Position numbers and translations under genes: made by a program
DNA from: Tepidanaerobacter syntrophicus
Lineage (GTDB): Bacteria > Bacillota > Thermosediminibacteria > Thermosediminibacterales > Tepidanaerobacteraceae
NCBI RefSeq assembly: GCF_001485475.2
Contig: NZ_DF977003.1
Location: 186,001-250,000, forward strand
Length of the DNA stretch: 64,000 nucleotides
Direction of reading: 5' to 3'
The notes under the pieces: generated by a model
Told to the model about the DNA's origin: nothing
Seen by the model: only the letters and a program-made list of their open reading frames with translations
Database searches by the model: none
Part shown: positions 37,191 through 49,124 of the stretch, in pieces
How positions within the stretch are numbered: the first letter of the stretch is position 1
Layout of the letters: each line of letters begins with the position of its first letter

Positions 37191-37473
37191 AACTAATTAC
37201 TGCATCTAAAACCGTTGAGGCGGAGATAAAGATGGTTATGCTCTTACAGAGAGCTCGCGGTGCTGAAAAGCGAGTAGAAAACAAGCCATCAAATGGACCG
37301 CTGAGGGCGCAGCCAAAGGCGAAAGCTGAGTATTCTGCGACGTGTAGGCATACGTAAGTTGCCGGGGATATGATAGTATCCTGCTGAGTGCACGGCTGCA
37401 ATATACCGTGAATCAAGGTGGTACCACGAGCGTAAAGCCCGTCCTTGACTTTTATGTCAAGGACGGGCTTTTT
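37191..37473 (+). ncRNA. T-box leader (tryptophan, specifier UGG) of the trp operon
   Basis: The T-box core AAGGTGGTACCACG is at 37415-37428. Stem I includes the AGAGAGCTCGCGGTGCTGAAAAGCGAG-type region around 37236-37262, and UGG at 37294-37296 followed by A is the likely specifier, the Trp codon. The antiterminator overlaps the terminator at 37434-37473. Uncharged tRNA-Trp should bind both sites and let transcription enter trpE. The bulge reads UGGU, which would match a discriminator A, or G only by wobble. Confidence 0.92.
37434..37473 (+). terminator. T-box terminator before trpE
   Basis: AAAGCCCGTCCTTGAC (37434-37449) pairs perfectly with GTCAAGGACGGGCTTT (37456-37471), 16 bp, then T5. 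Confidence 0.92.
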
Positions 37474-43989: not shown

Positions 43990-45704
43990 AAACCCTCCTT
44001 GTAGGAATAAATGCAAAATATATTCACACAAACCTTGCAATAAGGGATATATTTGGCTATATAAAACAGAACAACAAAGAAGAAGACATACAGATTTACG
44101 AAGCAACAATTAATGATGAATTAGACGATATCTTAGAAGATATTATATCTTATCAACCCGACGTAATCGGTTTTTCGTGCTATCTTTGGAATATAGAAAG
44201 CGTAATATATTTAGCAGAAAACATCAAAAAAATAAGACCGGAGACAAAAATTGTTTTAGGCGGTCCCGAAGTATCTTATGAGGCAGAAAATCTACTGGAA
44301 AGGAATCCCTTTGTAGATTATGTAATTTTGGGAGAGGGAGAGGAAAGATTTTTTAAATTGCTGCTGCATTTAAAAAGCGGAGCTCTTCTTGATACAATCG
44401 ATGGTTTGGCATATAAAAAATGGAACGATATTTTAATACAGTCCCCAAAGTCATATGTAAACTTGAATAAAATTCCATTTCCATACATTAACGAGAACGA
44501 GAATTTAGAGAACAAGTTAGTATACTACGAAACATCGCGAGGATGCCCTTTTAGATGTGCCTTTTGCTTGTCATCTCTTGAAACTGCCGTAAGAGAAGCC
44601 GATCTTGACAAAGTAGAGCAAGACTTTATGCGTTTTTTGAGAATGGGAGTAAGGATAGTTAAGTTGGTAGACAGATCCTTTAACTGCAATCTGCCGCGAG
44701 CGCTGAGACTTCTTGAAATCATTCGCAGCCTGCCGCAGGATATGATATTTCACTGCGAAATAAATCCGGAGTTGGTAAATGAGGAGTTTATTGAAGCTTT
44801 ACAGGGCATTGAAGACAGGCTGCAGTTTGAAGTAGGTATTCAAAGCACAAATCCTGAAACATTAAAAGAAATATCAAGGACTCCTAATACAAAAAAATCC
44901 CTTGACGGAATAAAGCGCCTCAAATCAGCCGGCATAAAACTTCATGTAGACTTAATCGCCGGTCTCCCGCACGAAAACTTTAAAAGCTTTGGCAATTCTT
45001 TTAATGAAGTGTACAATCTTCATACCGATGAAATACAGCTTGGATTTTTGAAGCTTTTAAAAGGAACAAAACTTAGGACAGATGCACATAAATATGGTAT
45101 TATATATCGTTCAAAACCCCCTTATGAAATTTTATACAACAATGACATAACATATGAAGAGCTTTGCATATTAAAGGGAATTGCACGCCTCTTAGACAAA
45201 TATTACAATACAGGCCGATTCTACCATTCTCTTATCTACCTAGAAGAGAAATTTAAATGCTCCTTTGAGCTTTACAAGGCATTTTATGATTATTGTAAAA
45301 GAGAAGGTCTTTTTAAAACCAGGCATTCTTTAAAAGACCGATATGACATATTATATTATTTTGCAGAAAGTTTAGGAACAGATATCGTGAATTTTGACAT
45401 TTTTAAAGACATCCTTAAATTTGATTTTCTACTGACAAATGGTAAGGCTGCTATGCCTAGATGTATTGAGGCTTGCGAAGATCGAGAATTTTTAACAATA
45501 GCCAAGAAATACATTTGCAACAATAAATGGCTTAAGGAAAATCTTCCTCAAGCCATAGGATTCTCAAATCATGAACTTTCTAGATATCTTGCTTATGGGC
45601 TTTTTAACTATGACATCCCTTATAACTATAATGTAAAAAAGAAAAAGGGAGTTGTCTTCTTGCAGAAAAATAACAAAAACTATTACGCTGATTTTGAGGT
45701 CTAA
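43986..45704 (+). CDS. Radical SAM protein with B12-binding-like N-terminus and DUF4080-like C-terminus
   Basis: 572 residues. N-terminal Rossmann-like cobalamin-binding-type domain (about 1-130, GFSCYLWN, LGGPEVSYE), radical SAM core with the Fe-S motif GCPFRCAFC near residues 185-193, and a C-terminal region like DUF4080. No DxHxxG cobalamin ligand is seen, as in many BchE-like members. It overlaps trpA by 4 nt (GTGA), so it is translated with the trp operon, yet no step of tryptophan synthesis requires it. Substrate unknown; modification of a Trp-derived or tRNA substrate is possible. Its last bases overlap the convergent ABC ATPase gene. Confidence 0.85.
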   Translation: MKTLLVGINAKYIHTNLAIRDIFGYIKQNNKEEDIQIYEATINDELDDILEDIISYQPDVIGFSCYLWNIESVIYLAENIKKIRPETKIVLGGPEVSYEAENLLERNPFVDYVILGEGEERFFKLLLHLKSGALLDTIDGLAYKKWNDILIQSPKSYVNLNKIPFPYINENENLENKLVYYETSRGCPFRCAFCLSSLETAVREADLDKVEQDFMRFLRMGVRIVKLVDRSFNCNLPRALRLLEIIRSLPQDMIFHCEINPELVNEEFIEALQGIEDRLQFEVGIQSTNPETLKEISRTPNTKKSLDGIKRLKSAGIKLHVDLIAGLPHENFKSFGNSFNEVYNLHTDEIQLGFLKLLKGTKLRTDAHKYGIIYRSKPPYEILYNNDITYEELCILKGIARLLDKYYNTGRFYHSLIYLEEKFKCSFELYKAFYDYCKREGLFKTRHSLKDRYDILYYFAESLGTDIVNFDIFKDILKFDFLLTNGKAAMPRCIEACEDREFLTIAKKYICNNKWLKENLPQAIGFSNHELSRYLAYGLFNYDIPYNYNVKKKKGVVFLQKNNKNYYADFEV

Positions 45705-46504
45705 GCCAGCATTATTCTGTCTTCTGCAAATTTCTCGCCCTGGACTTGTTCAAACTTACTAAGCAGCCGTGGGATAGTCATTGAAGCCTTTTCTTCACCA
45801 CTAATATCTAAGACGATTTGACCATTGTGCATCATTATAAGTCTATTTCCCATTTTGATTGCATGCTCCAGATTGTGGGTGACCATAATTGTCGTTAACT
45901 TGTTTTTTTGTACGATTTCCTCTGTCAGGCTGTTTACCAATACAGCTGTTTTTGGATCCAGTGCAGCAGTATGCTCATCTAAAAGCAGCAACTTAGGCTT
46001 TTTCATCGTAGCCATAATCAAAGTCAAAACTTGACGCTGACCACCGGAGAGAAGCTTTACCTTTGTAGAAAGACGATTTTCAAGACCCAGATTAATGTTT
46101 TCAAGATACTCCTTAAATATATTTCTTCGCTGAGCATCCAATCCTCGGCGAAGCATCATATTGTTTGGACGAGCATACGCTATTGATAAATTCTCTTCGA
46201 TAGTCATGGATGGGGCAGTGCCAAGCATTGGATCCTGAAAAACCCGACCTATAAATGCAGCTCTTTTGAATTCCGGCAGATTTGTTATATCCTTGCCATC
46301 AAGGTATATCTTTCCACTGTCCGGAAAATAAACACCTGCAATGATATTCAGTAGCGTCGATTTTCCTGCGCCATTACTTCCGATAACGGTTATAAAGTCG
46401 CCATCACTAACTTCAAGAGACAAATCATTTAAAACTCTATTTTCGTTAGGGGTATTGCGGTAGAATATTTTTTGTATATGCTCAAGAATCACCATAGGAA
46501 TCAC
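45701..46504 (-). CDS. ABC transporter ATP-binding protein (TrpZ-like)
   Basis: 267 residues with Walker A GSNGAGKST, signature LSGGQRQ, Walker B LLLLDEHTAALDP and H-loop VTHNLEHA. Closest in pattern to ATPases of the TrpXYZ/DUF-type uptake systems whose permease is a single BPD_transp_2 protein. It follows the permease with a 23-nt overlap. The start may be 46504 or 9 nt later. It powers uptake of the solute bound by the lipoprotein at 47421. Confidence 0.88.
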   Translation of the reverse strand: MIPMVILEHIQKIFYRNTPNENRVLNDLSLEVSDGDFITVIGSNGAGKSTLLNIIAGVYFPDSGKIYLDGKDITNLPEFKRAAFIGRVFQDPMLGTAPSMTIEENLSIAYARPNNMMLRRGLDAQRRNIFKEYLENINLGLENRLSTKVKLLSGGQRQVLTLIMATMKKPKLLLLDEHTAALDPKTAVLVNSLTEEIVQKNKLTTIMVTHNLEHAIKMGNRLIMMHNGQIVLDISGEEKASMTIPRLLSKFEQVQGEKFAEDRIMLA

Positions 46505-47405
46505 ACCTTTGCACGCGAAGTTTTATTGACTGCCTTATTTGAGGGGCTGTAAGGGCTATAATTACAACGATTGCCGTAAAAAGCTTTAAATCAGAAGCCT
46601 GCGCCAATCGGAAGGAAAGAACCAGCGAAATGCTAAATCGATATAAGAATGAGCCGAAAAGCACTCCTAACGTACTGATAAATACACTTCCTTCTCCGAA
46701 AAGCGTGGTGCCTATTATAACTGAAGCAAGGCCGGCTACAATCGTCCCAACTCCCATACCGGCATCAGCAAAACCCAAATATTGAGCAACCAATGAACCG
46801 GACAAGGCCACAAGACTATTGGAAATTACAAGTCCTATAGTTTTTGCCATATCAGTATTTACTCCCTGGCTTCGTATCATCTGTGGATTGTCACCGGTTG
46901 CTCTTAGCGCAAAGCCCATCTGTGTTTCTAAAAAGGTGTCAATTATAAACTTTATAAGCAAAGCAAAAACAATAAAGAATGCAAGATAAATAAATTTCAT
47001 TGGAAATGACGGCCAAACTCGGCTTATAAAAGATTCTGCCATAGAATAGATAGTAGGCTGATTTAGCAGAGGAGTGTTCGGCCTGCCCATTATCCTAAGG
47101 TTTATTGAATAAAGCGATGTCATGGTCAAAATACCTGACAAAAGGTCACTGATACCGGCTTTCGTGTTTAAAAATCCTGTTACATAACCGGCCAAGGCGC
47201 CTCCTAAGATTGCGCCAAAAGTTCCTACTACCGGGTTATATCCGCTTACGATAAGGGCTGCTGTGATGGAAGCCCCAAGAGGAAAACTTCCATCTACAGT
47301 CAAGTCGGAAAACTTTAGAATCTTAAAGGTCATATATACACCGATTGCCATGATTCCGTAGACTAAACCTTGCTCTAAAGAAGTCAGGAATAAGTTTTGC
47401 AACAT
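46482..47405 (-). CDS. ABC transporter permease (TrpY-like)
   Basis: 307 residues with eight or more membrane helices, branched-chain-type inner membrane permease family (GLVYGIMAIGVYMTFKILKFSDLTVDGSFPLGA in segments; GMGVGTIVAGLASVIIG). One permease paired with the family-specific binding protein is the TrpXYZ arrangement. The gene lies 15 nt after the binding-protein gene. Substrate predicted as tryptophan or a related compound from position next to the trp operon. Confidence 0.87.
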   Translation of the reverse strand: MLQNLFLTSLEQGLVYGIMAIGVYMTFKILKFSDLTVDGSFPLGASITAALIVSGYNPVVGTFGAILGGALAGYVTGFLNTKAGISDLLSGILTMTSLYSINLRIMGRPNTPLLNQPTIYSMAESFISRVWPSFPMKFIYLAFFIVFALLIKFIIDTFLETQMGFALRATGDNPQMIRSQGVNTDMAKTIGLVISNSLVALSGSLVAQYLGFADAGMGVGTIVAGLASVIIGTTLFGEGSVFISTLGVLFGSFLYRFSISLVLSFRLAQASDLKLFTAIVVIIALTAPQIRQSIKLRVQRCDSYGDS

Positions 47406-47420
47406 TTATGGACACCTCAA

Positions 47421-48467
47421 TTATTTTTCTAATATCTCATCTGCCCTAGACAATACTTCTTGAGGGATAGTAATCCCAAGAGCTTCTGCTGATTTCTTAT
47501 TTATAATAAGCTTTAAATCTTTTGAGCTTTCTACCGGCATCTCTGCAGGATTTTCGCCATTTAAAACCCTGGCAGCCATTTGGCCGGTTTGTTTACCCAG
47601 AAGATAATAATCTATTCCAATAGTGGCTAAGGCTCCACCTTCTACTTCACCACGCTCGGCTCCTATAACAGGTATTTTTGCCTCATTGGCAACTTTTACA
47701 ATGTTGCTTATCGCGGAAGCTACGGTGTTATCTGTGGGAGTATAAATTGCATCTACTTTGCTAACTAATGACTGGACTGCTTGATTTATTTCGCTGGTAT
47801 TGGCAACTGTTGCTTCAAATATGGTAAGATCAAGTTCTTTTGCGGCTTCTTTTGCTATGTTTACCTGAACAACAGAATTGGGCTCTGCGGCATTGTAAAT
47901 TATACCCACATTTTTAGCCGAAGGAATTATTTCCTTTAACAACTTTAATTGGTCTTTTACTGGATTCATATCAGTAGTGCCCGTAACATTTGTGCCGGGT
48001 TTTTCCATGCTCTTAACCAGACCTGCATCTACCGGATCGGTAACAGCAGTTACAAGAATAGAAATGTCTTTTGTGGCATTTACAGCGGCTTGGGCTGATG
48101 GAGTTGCGATAGCTAGAATAAGGTCTACTTTTTCATTGATAAGCTTATTGGCTATTGCCTGCGTTGTTGAAAAATCTGCCTGAGCATTTTCGACAATAAT
48201 TTCAATATTTTTGCCTTCTTCAAATCCTGCTTCTTTAAGACCGTCTACAAAGCCTTCACGAGCTGAATCGAGTGCAGGGTGTTCGACAAACTGTGATATT
48301 CCAATTTTGTAGACTTTGCCTGTGCCGCCGGCGCTTGTATCTTCACTGTTTGATGTATCAGAGGTTGATTCTTGAGACGCTGGACCGCTGCCACATCCTG
48401 TTTGGATAAGAGCTAGCGCGAGAATTAAAATCATTATTACTATAGATGTTATAAAAGTTTTTTTCAT
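47421..48467 (-). CDS. ABC transporter substrate-binding lipoprotein (TrpX-like)
   Basis: 348 residues from ATG 48467, 9 nt after a GGGGGC ribosome site; the open frame runs back to 48515 through the leader. Lipoprotein signal with lipobox IQTGC, then a two-lobed periplasmic-binding fold of the ABC_sub_bind family (YKIGISQFVEHPALDSAREGF, VTGTTDMNPVKDQL). Members include streptococcal TrpX. The leader at 48504-48633 appears to control it. Confidence 0.88.
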   Translation of the reverse strand: MKKTFITSIVIMILILALALIQTGCGSGPASQESTSDTSNSEDTSAGGTGKVYKIGISQFVEHPALDSAREGFVDGLKEAGFEEGKNIEIIVENAQADFSTTQAIANKLINEKVDLILAIATPSAQAAVNATKDISILVTAVTDPVDAGLVKSMEKPGTNVTGTTDMNPVKDQLKLLKEIIPSAKNVGIIYNAAEPNSVVQVNIAKEAAKELDLTIFEATVANTSEINQAVQSLVSKVDAIYTPTDNTVASAISNIVKVANEAKIPVIGAERGEVEGGALATIGIDYYLLGKQTGQMAARVLNGENPAEMPVESSKDLKLIINKKSAEALGITIPQEVLSRADEILEK

Positions 48468-48503
48468 TTTGAATGCCCCCTTTTGTTTAGCTTGCAGGAC
48501 AGA

Positions 48504-48633
48504 AGCAAGTAGCATACTTGCAAAGCTGAACAGGAGTAAAAAGTATGCAAAAAAGCACTCGGCAAGAGTGCTTGATGTAACTCTACGTTTTCTCCTACCG
48601 TCCTACCATGCTACAAGTTAATTCAATTTATTT
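48504..48633 (-). promoter_or_regulatory. Regulated leader with UAG triplets, terminator and competing hairpins
   Basis: Read 5' to 3' on the minus strand: UAG at 48613-48611, 48605-48603, 48597-48595 (with GAG directly after) and 48585-48583; then the terminator at 48573-48549; then GCAUACUU (48548-48541) able to pair with AAGUAUGC (48519-48512), which competes with a second hairpin GCAAGUA/UACUUGC (48521-48505). The repeated triplets next to a HutP-family gene suggest a protein-responsive attenuator. Function is inferred. Confidence 0.5.
48549..48573 (-). terminator. Leader terminator before the TrpX-like gene
   Basis: On the minus strand AAGCACTC-TTGCC-GAGTGCTT followed by T6. It lies between the promoter and the start codon, so it must be bypassed for transporter expression. 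Confidence 0.85.
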
Positions 48634-48639
48634 GGCTAA

Positions 48640-48668
48640 AGTATATAATTATTAGGTCAGTTTGTCAA
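48640..48668 (-). promoter_or_regulatory. Promoter of the TrpXYZ-like transporter
   Basis: Minus strand: TTGACA (48668-48663), 17-bp spacer, TATACT (48645-48640). It begins 30 bp after the HutP-family gene. Confidence 0.85.
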
Positions 48669-48698
48669 TAGTGAATTCTAACAGTAATTTATGAATAT

Positions 48699-49124
48699 TT
48701 AGATTTCACCTTCACTCCGAGGCAGTGTGCGGTGCCCAAGGCCTATGACCACTTCATTGAAGCTTAAGAATCCTATAGCAAAAAACATTGCTACACTTAT
48801 ATGTTCTCCATACCTGGCAATTCCGATTTTACCTCCCACATTAAAGCCTACAGCTTTTTGCAAAACCTGAGAAAGGGCTTCCCGTGTAGCTCCTATAAGG
48901 GCTCCTTCTAATACATGAACGTTTTCCTTTATGACACCTTCTCGTTTTGCGGCGACCAAAGATCTTTCTATAATTTTTTCGATAGAATCTATTAAATTAC
49001 CGCCAAAATCTACTGCACAAACCTTAACATTCATATCACGGAATGTCTTTTTGAGCTCAGCTTCTTCTGCGCGGGTTGAAATTGCCATTTTTATTGCAAT
49101 TTTTGCCACATCAGTACTTTCCAA
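48699..49124 (-). CDS. HutP family RNA-binding regulator
   Basis: 141 residues. The C-terminal half (HVLEGALIGATREALSQVL, GKIGIARYGEHISVAMFF, IGLGHRTL) lines up with HutP, the histidine- and Mg-dependent antiterminator of the Bacillus hut operon, which binds spaced UAG/NAG triplets. No hut gene is nearby. The next unit on the same strand is the leader-controlled ABC transporter. TTG start after AAGGGGGC. Whether it binds histidine, tryptophan or another ligand is unknown. Confidence 0.85.
   Translation of the reverse strand: MESTDVAKIAIKMAISTRAEEAELKKTFRDMNVKVCAVDFGGNLIDSIEKIIERSLVAAKREGVIKENVHVLEGALIGATREALSQVLQKAVGFNVGGKIGIARYGEHISVAMFFAIGFLSFNEVVIGLGHRTLPRSEGEI

Follow-up and report, generated by a model that had tools for sequence, protein, structure and literature searches.

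The HutP-like protein encoded beside a TrpXYZ-like transporter operon of Tepidanaerobacter syntrophicus is likely, judged from comparative sequence analysis, to be a trans-acting and ligand-dependent attenuator of an aromatic amino-acid regulon, with a function resembling that of TRAP. The locus lies in the window, as the whole stretch of 64,000 nucleotides that was analysed is called here, and all coordinates refer to that stretch.

Organisation of the locus

The gene of the HutP-like RNA-binding regulator, a putative aromatic amino-acid sensor, is located at 48699 to 49124 on the minus strand and codes for 141 amino acids from a TTG start codon. Its predicted membership of the HutP family was borne out by the match to the Pfam model PF09021 (E-value 3.3e-46, 157 bits, with a cut-off of 25). 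As also predicted, the gene is followed by a near-consensus promoter of the sigma-70 type, TTGACA-17-TATACT (48640 to 48668, minus strand, 11 of 12 consensus matches), from which a leader of ~85 nucleotides extends to a terminator. The operon downstream, on the same minus strand, codes for a trpX-like substrate-binding protein (47421 to 48467; PF04392, E-value 3e-99), a trpY-like permease (46482 to 47405; PF02653, BPD_transp_2) and a trpZ-like ATPase (45701 to 46504; PF00005), in agreement with the transporter type proposed initially. The better of the two NCBIfam matches of the substrate-binding protein is the TrpX model NF041285, with 347 bits and thus under the curated cut-off of 390, as is the score of all trpX relatives of the class. 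TrpX of Streptococcus suis belongs to a tryptophan uptake system (PMC9382623). The GGGGG core of the trpX Shine-Dalgarno sequence was read directly at 48476 to 48480 (minus strand), and the GGGGG run is kept in an alignment of 12 leaders.

The absence of hut genes from the locus, part of the original prediction, was supported. The neighbouring trp operon is preceded by a T-box leader (37206 to 37449, plus strand; RF00230, 96.7 bits), which was the sole match in an RF00230 search of the window, with no T-box at the transporter leader; the trp synthesis genes and the transporter are thus under different switches here. Similarly, no Rfam family matched the leader in the window or at seven related loci. 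The close named relatives are Tepidanaerobacteraceae.

The leader RNA

The leader contains three repeats, UGUAGCAU-GGUAGGAC-GGUAGGAG, which are spaced at an 8-nucleotide pitch on direct reading (48592 to 48615, minus strand) and are proposed to form the binding site of the protein. UAG triplets had been placed at 48613, 48605, 48597 and 48585, where all four were indeed found, and the pitch corresponds to the 5-nucleotide spacer that had been put forward as a new geometry. The fourth UAG (48583 to 48585, minus strand, direct reading) is out of the 8-nucleotide register and matches no conserved triplet in the 12-leader alignment. A single copy of the 13-nucleotide repeat core GGTAGNNNGGTAG is present in the 64 kb of the window, compared to 0.02 occurrences expected by chance. 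In a search of the window's own genome, the covariance model R1 matched the leader with an E-value of 1.8e-18, the window leader being itself among the seeds of this model. A second match in the same genome (C9:305334, E-value 3e-4) was rejected, as it looks like a chance terminator.

The perfect terminator predicted ahead of the transporter genes is present as AAGCACTC-TTGCC-GAGTGCTT (48573 to 48553, minus strand), followed by a U tract, and its stem covaries in 101 distinct leaders. The segment CUCUUGCC (48561 to 48568, minus strand) comprises the 5' arm and loop of the terminator and is the candidate antiterminator partner of GGUAGGAG (48599 to 48592), with a shuffle p of 0.004. When the window leader was folded, the probability of the terminator rose from 0.04 in the free RNA to 0.997 with the repeats blocked.

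Further downstream, the anti-repeat CUGUCCUGC (48494 to 48502, minus strand, direct reading) can form 9 pairs, including G-U, with GUAGGACGG (48606 to 48598), for which a post-termination control is proposed; the duplex between the repeats and the downstream region has a p of 0.035 in this leader. The anti-repeat fits the window's own spacer GAC, just as the CCAUAC of the relatives fits their UAU. A different second switch had been suggested originally, in which GCAUACUU/AAGUAUGC would compete with GCAAGUA/UACUUGC (48505 to 48548, minus strand). Both arms are present, but the 12-leader alignment shows them to lie within extra sequence of the window leader, which is largely missing from the other 11 leaders; this switch was therefore rejected as a conserved element. 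The second element that recurs across leaders is the anti-repeat pairing with the repeats.

Conservation of the arrangement and of the repeat spacing

The hutP-trpX arrangement is closely repeated in relatives of the class. The original prediction had made itself dependent on the conservation of the triplets and the terminator, and both were found conserved at related loci. The spacing was analysed in 80 loci obtained from a scan of named genomes and picked by the HutP-like protein alone. In these loci, three G(U/C)AG motifs at an 8-nucleotide pitch precede 13 of 16 trpX, 8 of 47 aroF, 2 of 67 hutP and 1 of 39 aroH genes. Triples at a 7- or 9-nucleotide pitch were not found before any tested gene, the reversed motif did not occur, and no 8-nucleotide triple precedes the control genes trpE, tyrA, aroA, trpB, cmk, plsC, ispH and rluB of the same 80 loci. 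The regulator gene is linked to aroH, trp genes, aroF or trpX and is often the first gene of its operon, as in hutP-aroH-trpEGDCFBA, hutP-aroH-aroF-tyrA-aroA, hutP-aroH-hisC-aroF and hutP-trpXYZ.

Generally, the leaders contain two to four GG(U/C)AG repeats at an 8-nucleotide pitch just 5' of the terminator, most of them three or two, and a run of three was present in 79 of 134 leaders selected by the covariance model.

Co-occurrence of leader and regulator

As an exact-pattern genome search gave low-complexity false matches in some genomes, a covariance model built from 26 leaders, with that of the window among the seeds, was used to search the genomes. Of 398 genomes of the phylum, 257 gave matches of varying strength to the HutP-like family. 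The leader model matched 152 of the 398 genomes. A strong match to the HutP-like protein was also present in 141 of these 152, an association with an odds ratio of 29 and a p of 4e-37, calculated irrespective of phylogeny. A strong HutP-like gene with no leader at the threshold was found in 76 genomes, and eight genomes have a leader and no HutP match.

Within the class, all 18 genomes with both a trp-type HutP and trpX have the leader, at about 1e-12 or better, and the seven genomes without a trp-type HutP have no leader match below 1e-5. One further genome (G013) contains a more distant HutP copy and has a weak leader match only. In four genomes (G001, G002, G008 and G009) the leader is present although the regulator is not linked to trpX, as is expected of a trans-acting factor.

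Genes downstream of the leader

For 113 of the 145 leader matches examined, the gene that follows was identified by BLAST as an aromatic amino-acid gene. The genes 3' of the leaders are aroF (60), trpX (40), hisC-like (6), hutP-aroH (5), tyrA (1), aroH (1) and others (32), a tally to which a single genome contributes a few of its loci twice. Among the others are aroE and aroK (assigned by eye), an NhaC-type antiporter, symporters, binding proteins, a PrdR-like regulator, tryptophanase-like lyases and phenylacetate-CoA ligase; tyrosine has been linked to NhaC-type transporters through T-boxes (PMC2494555). The leader-bearing operons are spread over many orders. HutP control had been predicted to extend to amino acid transport, and the linkage to the transporter leader agrees with this, but the scope appears much wider than one transporter, since DAHP synthase, hutP-aroH, aminotransferase, tyrA and other operons of many orders are concerned.

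Some individual loci deserve mention. Leaders precede genes similar to tryptophanase or tyrosine phenol-lyase at three loci (L268, L282 and L287), where the function is catabolic and the polarity may differ. Weaker leader-like sites were seen before phenylacetate-CoA ligase (PaaK) genes at four loci of the window's family (L306, L311, L312 and L315). At L270 and L285 the gene after the leader has no NCBIfam match at 1e-30 and resembles, by eye, the GHMP-kinase or beta-RFAP-synthase type. The genome G075, one of the eight with a leader and no HutP match, is 99% complete in two contigs; it has a leader before a hisC-like gene (L284) and no detectable HutP-like gene.

Fold and ligand site of the HutP-like protein

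A PDB search with the single sequence found no HutP at an E-value below 0.001, whereas HutP was found when a profile was used. The AlphaFold model of the protein has a pLDDT of 92; its significant fold matches in the PDB, 11 in number, are without exception HutP structures. At the positions of His73, His77 and His138, the metal-coordinating residues of HutP, the aligned protein has G74, G78 and E124, and both glycines are invariant in 50 sequences. Likewise, Arg88 and Glu90, the L-histidine contacts of HutP, align with Q89 and A91. The protein thus shares the fold of HutP but lacks its known ligand site. As all three metal histidines and both histidine contacts are replaced, the ligand is probably not histidine; the putative ligand is an aromatic amino acid, with tryptophan as the best guess for the transporter of the window.

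Evidence for a predicted, mutually exclusive antiterminator

The terminator stem is well supported by covariation, with 116 both-side changes in the 101 distinct leaders compared to 19 in shuffles. The final repeat, GG(U/C)AGGAG, can base-pair with the terminator through its complementarity to the 5' arm and loop; in 37 leaders this pairing gave a median shuffle p of 0.014, with 26 values below 0.05. When the 101 leaders were aligned without the antiterminator helix, 78% of its cells were paired, compared to 47-64% when the helix was slid and 63% when it was shifted to the second repeat. The antiterminator showed 37 both-side changes compared to 9 in shuffles, a U/C covariation which partly follows base composition, the other triplets being correlated with the loop too.

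The mean probability of the terminator over all leaders was 0.53 in the free RNA and 0.87 with the repeats blocked, and reached 0.69 in the free RNA when the repeats were shuffled. A value below 0.5 in the free RNA was obtained for 46 of 101 leaders, compared to 30 of 102 with shuffled repeats. A full switch, crossing 0.5, was predicted in 36 of the 101 leaders; as the thermodynamics does not show a switch everywhere, folding alone was rejected as proof of the mechanism.

The duplex between the repeats and the downstream anti-repeat had a p of at most 0.05 in 14 of 23 trpX leaders and in 14 of 38 aroF leaders. In most trpX relatives, the leader alignment places the C-rich part of the anti-repeat opposite the GGGGG ribosome site, which suggests a second, translational layer of control in the trpX and some of the aroF leaders.

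Proposed mechanism and alternatives

Owing to the pairing between the last repeat and the terminator (5' arm and loop), the free RNA would be read through and an RNA with protein-covered repeats would terminate. The antitermination assumed in the original prediction is therefore not supported, and the polarity is probably the opposite, with the bound protein leading to termination. At low supply of the amino acid, the repeats would be free and GGUAGGAG would pair with CUCUUACC/CUCUUGCC as the antiterminator, so that transcription would run into trpXYZ, aroF and the other operons. When it is plentiful, the loaded protein would cover the repeats, the terminator would form and expression would fall. 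Three repeats would fit one three-fold (trimeric) face of a hexamer of the HutP type. In addition, the downstream anti-repeat could pair with the repeats, its C-rich part being able to pair with the ribosome-binding site in most trpX relatives. The leaders before tryptophanase-like lyases and paaK speak against such an attenuator, as these genes are catabolic and not obviously shut by excess. The eight genomes with a leader and no HutP match, the 76 with a strong HutP-like gene and no leader at the threshold, and the leaders without a predicted thermodynamic switch count against it as well.

The same catabolic targets (tryptophanase-like lyase, paaK), few in number, would suit a true antitermination of the HutP type, in which the protein on the repeats blocks the terminator and increases expression, either at starvation in the absence of ligand or in response to an inducer that is not aromatic. 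Family and fold also point in this direction, and the HutP of B. subtilis, which antiterminates when its inducer is present (PMC12456014), is a precedent. However, the repeats are not part of the terminator and complement its 5' arm and loop, and once they are covered the terminator would be free to form; moreover, plenty should shut biosynthesis and uptake genes, and the metal and histidine ligand residues of HutP are replaced. We consider this explanation unlikely. Still less probable is that the leaders are cis-acting only, as a small riboswitch or as the site of another RNA-binding protein such as TRAP, and that their linkage to the HutP-like gene is incidental. The eight genomes with leaders and no HutP match would be accounted for in this way, but not the strong co-occurrence with the HutP-like gene, unlinked leaders included; in addition, what is conserved is a linear repeat rather than a folded aptamer, Rfam has no match on the leader, and the TRAP domain PF02081 is absent from 23 of 26 genomes of the class and from the window's own genome, for which TRAP was rejected as the regulator.

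A classical ribosome-dependent attenuation by a Trp-rich leader peptide, or a degenerate T-box, is brought to mind by the T-box of the neighbouring trp operon and by the control of trpX by a T-box in S. suis (PMC9382623). Yet an 8-nucleotide repeat changes frame with each unit and has UAG after every GG, and hence cannot be a run of Trp codons, and the leader, of only ~85 nucleotides, gave no T-box match, which makes both variants very improbable.

Comparison with known systems

The system shares with HutP of Bacillus subtilis (PF09021; PDB 1wmq) and of Geobacillus (4ok9) the Pfam family, the fold (Foldseek E-value 1.7e-08, TM about 0.77), and an RNA site of about three triplets combined with a terminator. 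It differs from HutP by an identity of about 22%, by the replacement of His73/77/138 and Arg88/Glu90 in the window protein, and by an 8-nucleotide pitch with GG before the triplet, HutP binding UAG triplets 4 nucleotides apart (7-nucleotide pitch). Whereas HutP acts on the hut operon of histidine degradation, the targets here are trpX, aroF, aroH and others, and the predicted polarity is opposite to antitermination.

The resemblance to TRAP (MtrB) of Bacillus concerns the logic of the switch. By sequence and folding, the repeats overlap an antiterminator that is exclusive with the terminator, the bound protein is predicted to favour the terminator, a second layer at the ribosome-binding site is possible, and the targets are aromatic amino-acid genes. 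The proteins are unrelated, the one here having the HutP fold and its genome no PF02081. The TRAP site consists of about eleven closely spaced NAG triplets with spacers of 2-3 nucleotides, compared to about three repeats at an 8-nucleotide pitch here. PF02081 was found in three genomes of the class (G014, G015 and G016), and in G014 it occurs together with the HutP-like system. In S. suis, a tryptophan transporter of this type is under terminator/antiterminator control by the Trp T-box of trpXYZ (PMC9382623), a tRNA-sensing RNA of about 460 nucleotides, in contrast to the leader of ~85 nucleotides and the dedicated protein proposed here.

On balance, we favour a phylum-wide aromatic regulon at the RNA level, in which a HutP-fold protein, unrelated to TRAP, would have changed its ligand from histidine and metal to an aromatic amino acid, its pitch from 7 to 8 nucleotides and its polarity from antitermination to attenuation, and would have converged on the mechanism of TRAP. 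No description of a HutP-like aromatic switch was found in open-access full texts; earlier work elsewhere is possible. If true, this would explain the control of DAHP synthase, chorismate mutase and tryptophan uptake in many Bacillota, among them Moorella, Desulfotomaculum-type bacteria, Tepidanaerobacter and Halanaerobiales, would assign a function to the many genes that go by the name 'HutP family' alone, and would represent a second evolutionary origin of TRAP-type attenuation, comparable with TRAP.

Other HutP types

A second HutP type of the class keeps the HxxxH and NHE motifs (L020, L021 and L024; gene at about 1486-1896 in the oriented loci) and adjoins a PAS-type regulator (L020 and L024) or a carboxyl-transferase-like gene (L021). 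A third type is followed by a CoA-transferase gene of the CaiB/BaiF type (L023, 1899-2160; L022, 1890-2139). The spacer in L023, AATGAGAGAATGAGAG, again shows an 8-nucleotide period of NAG and is perhaps part of another pair of HutP and target.
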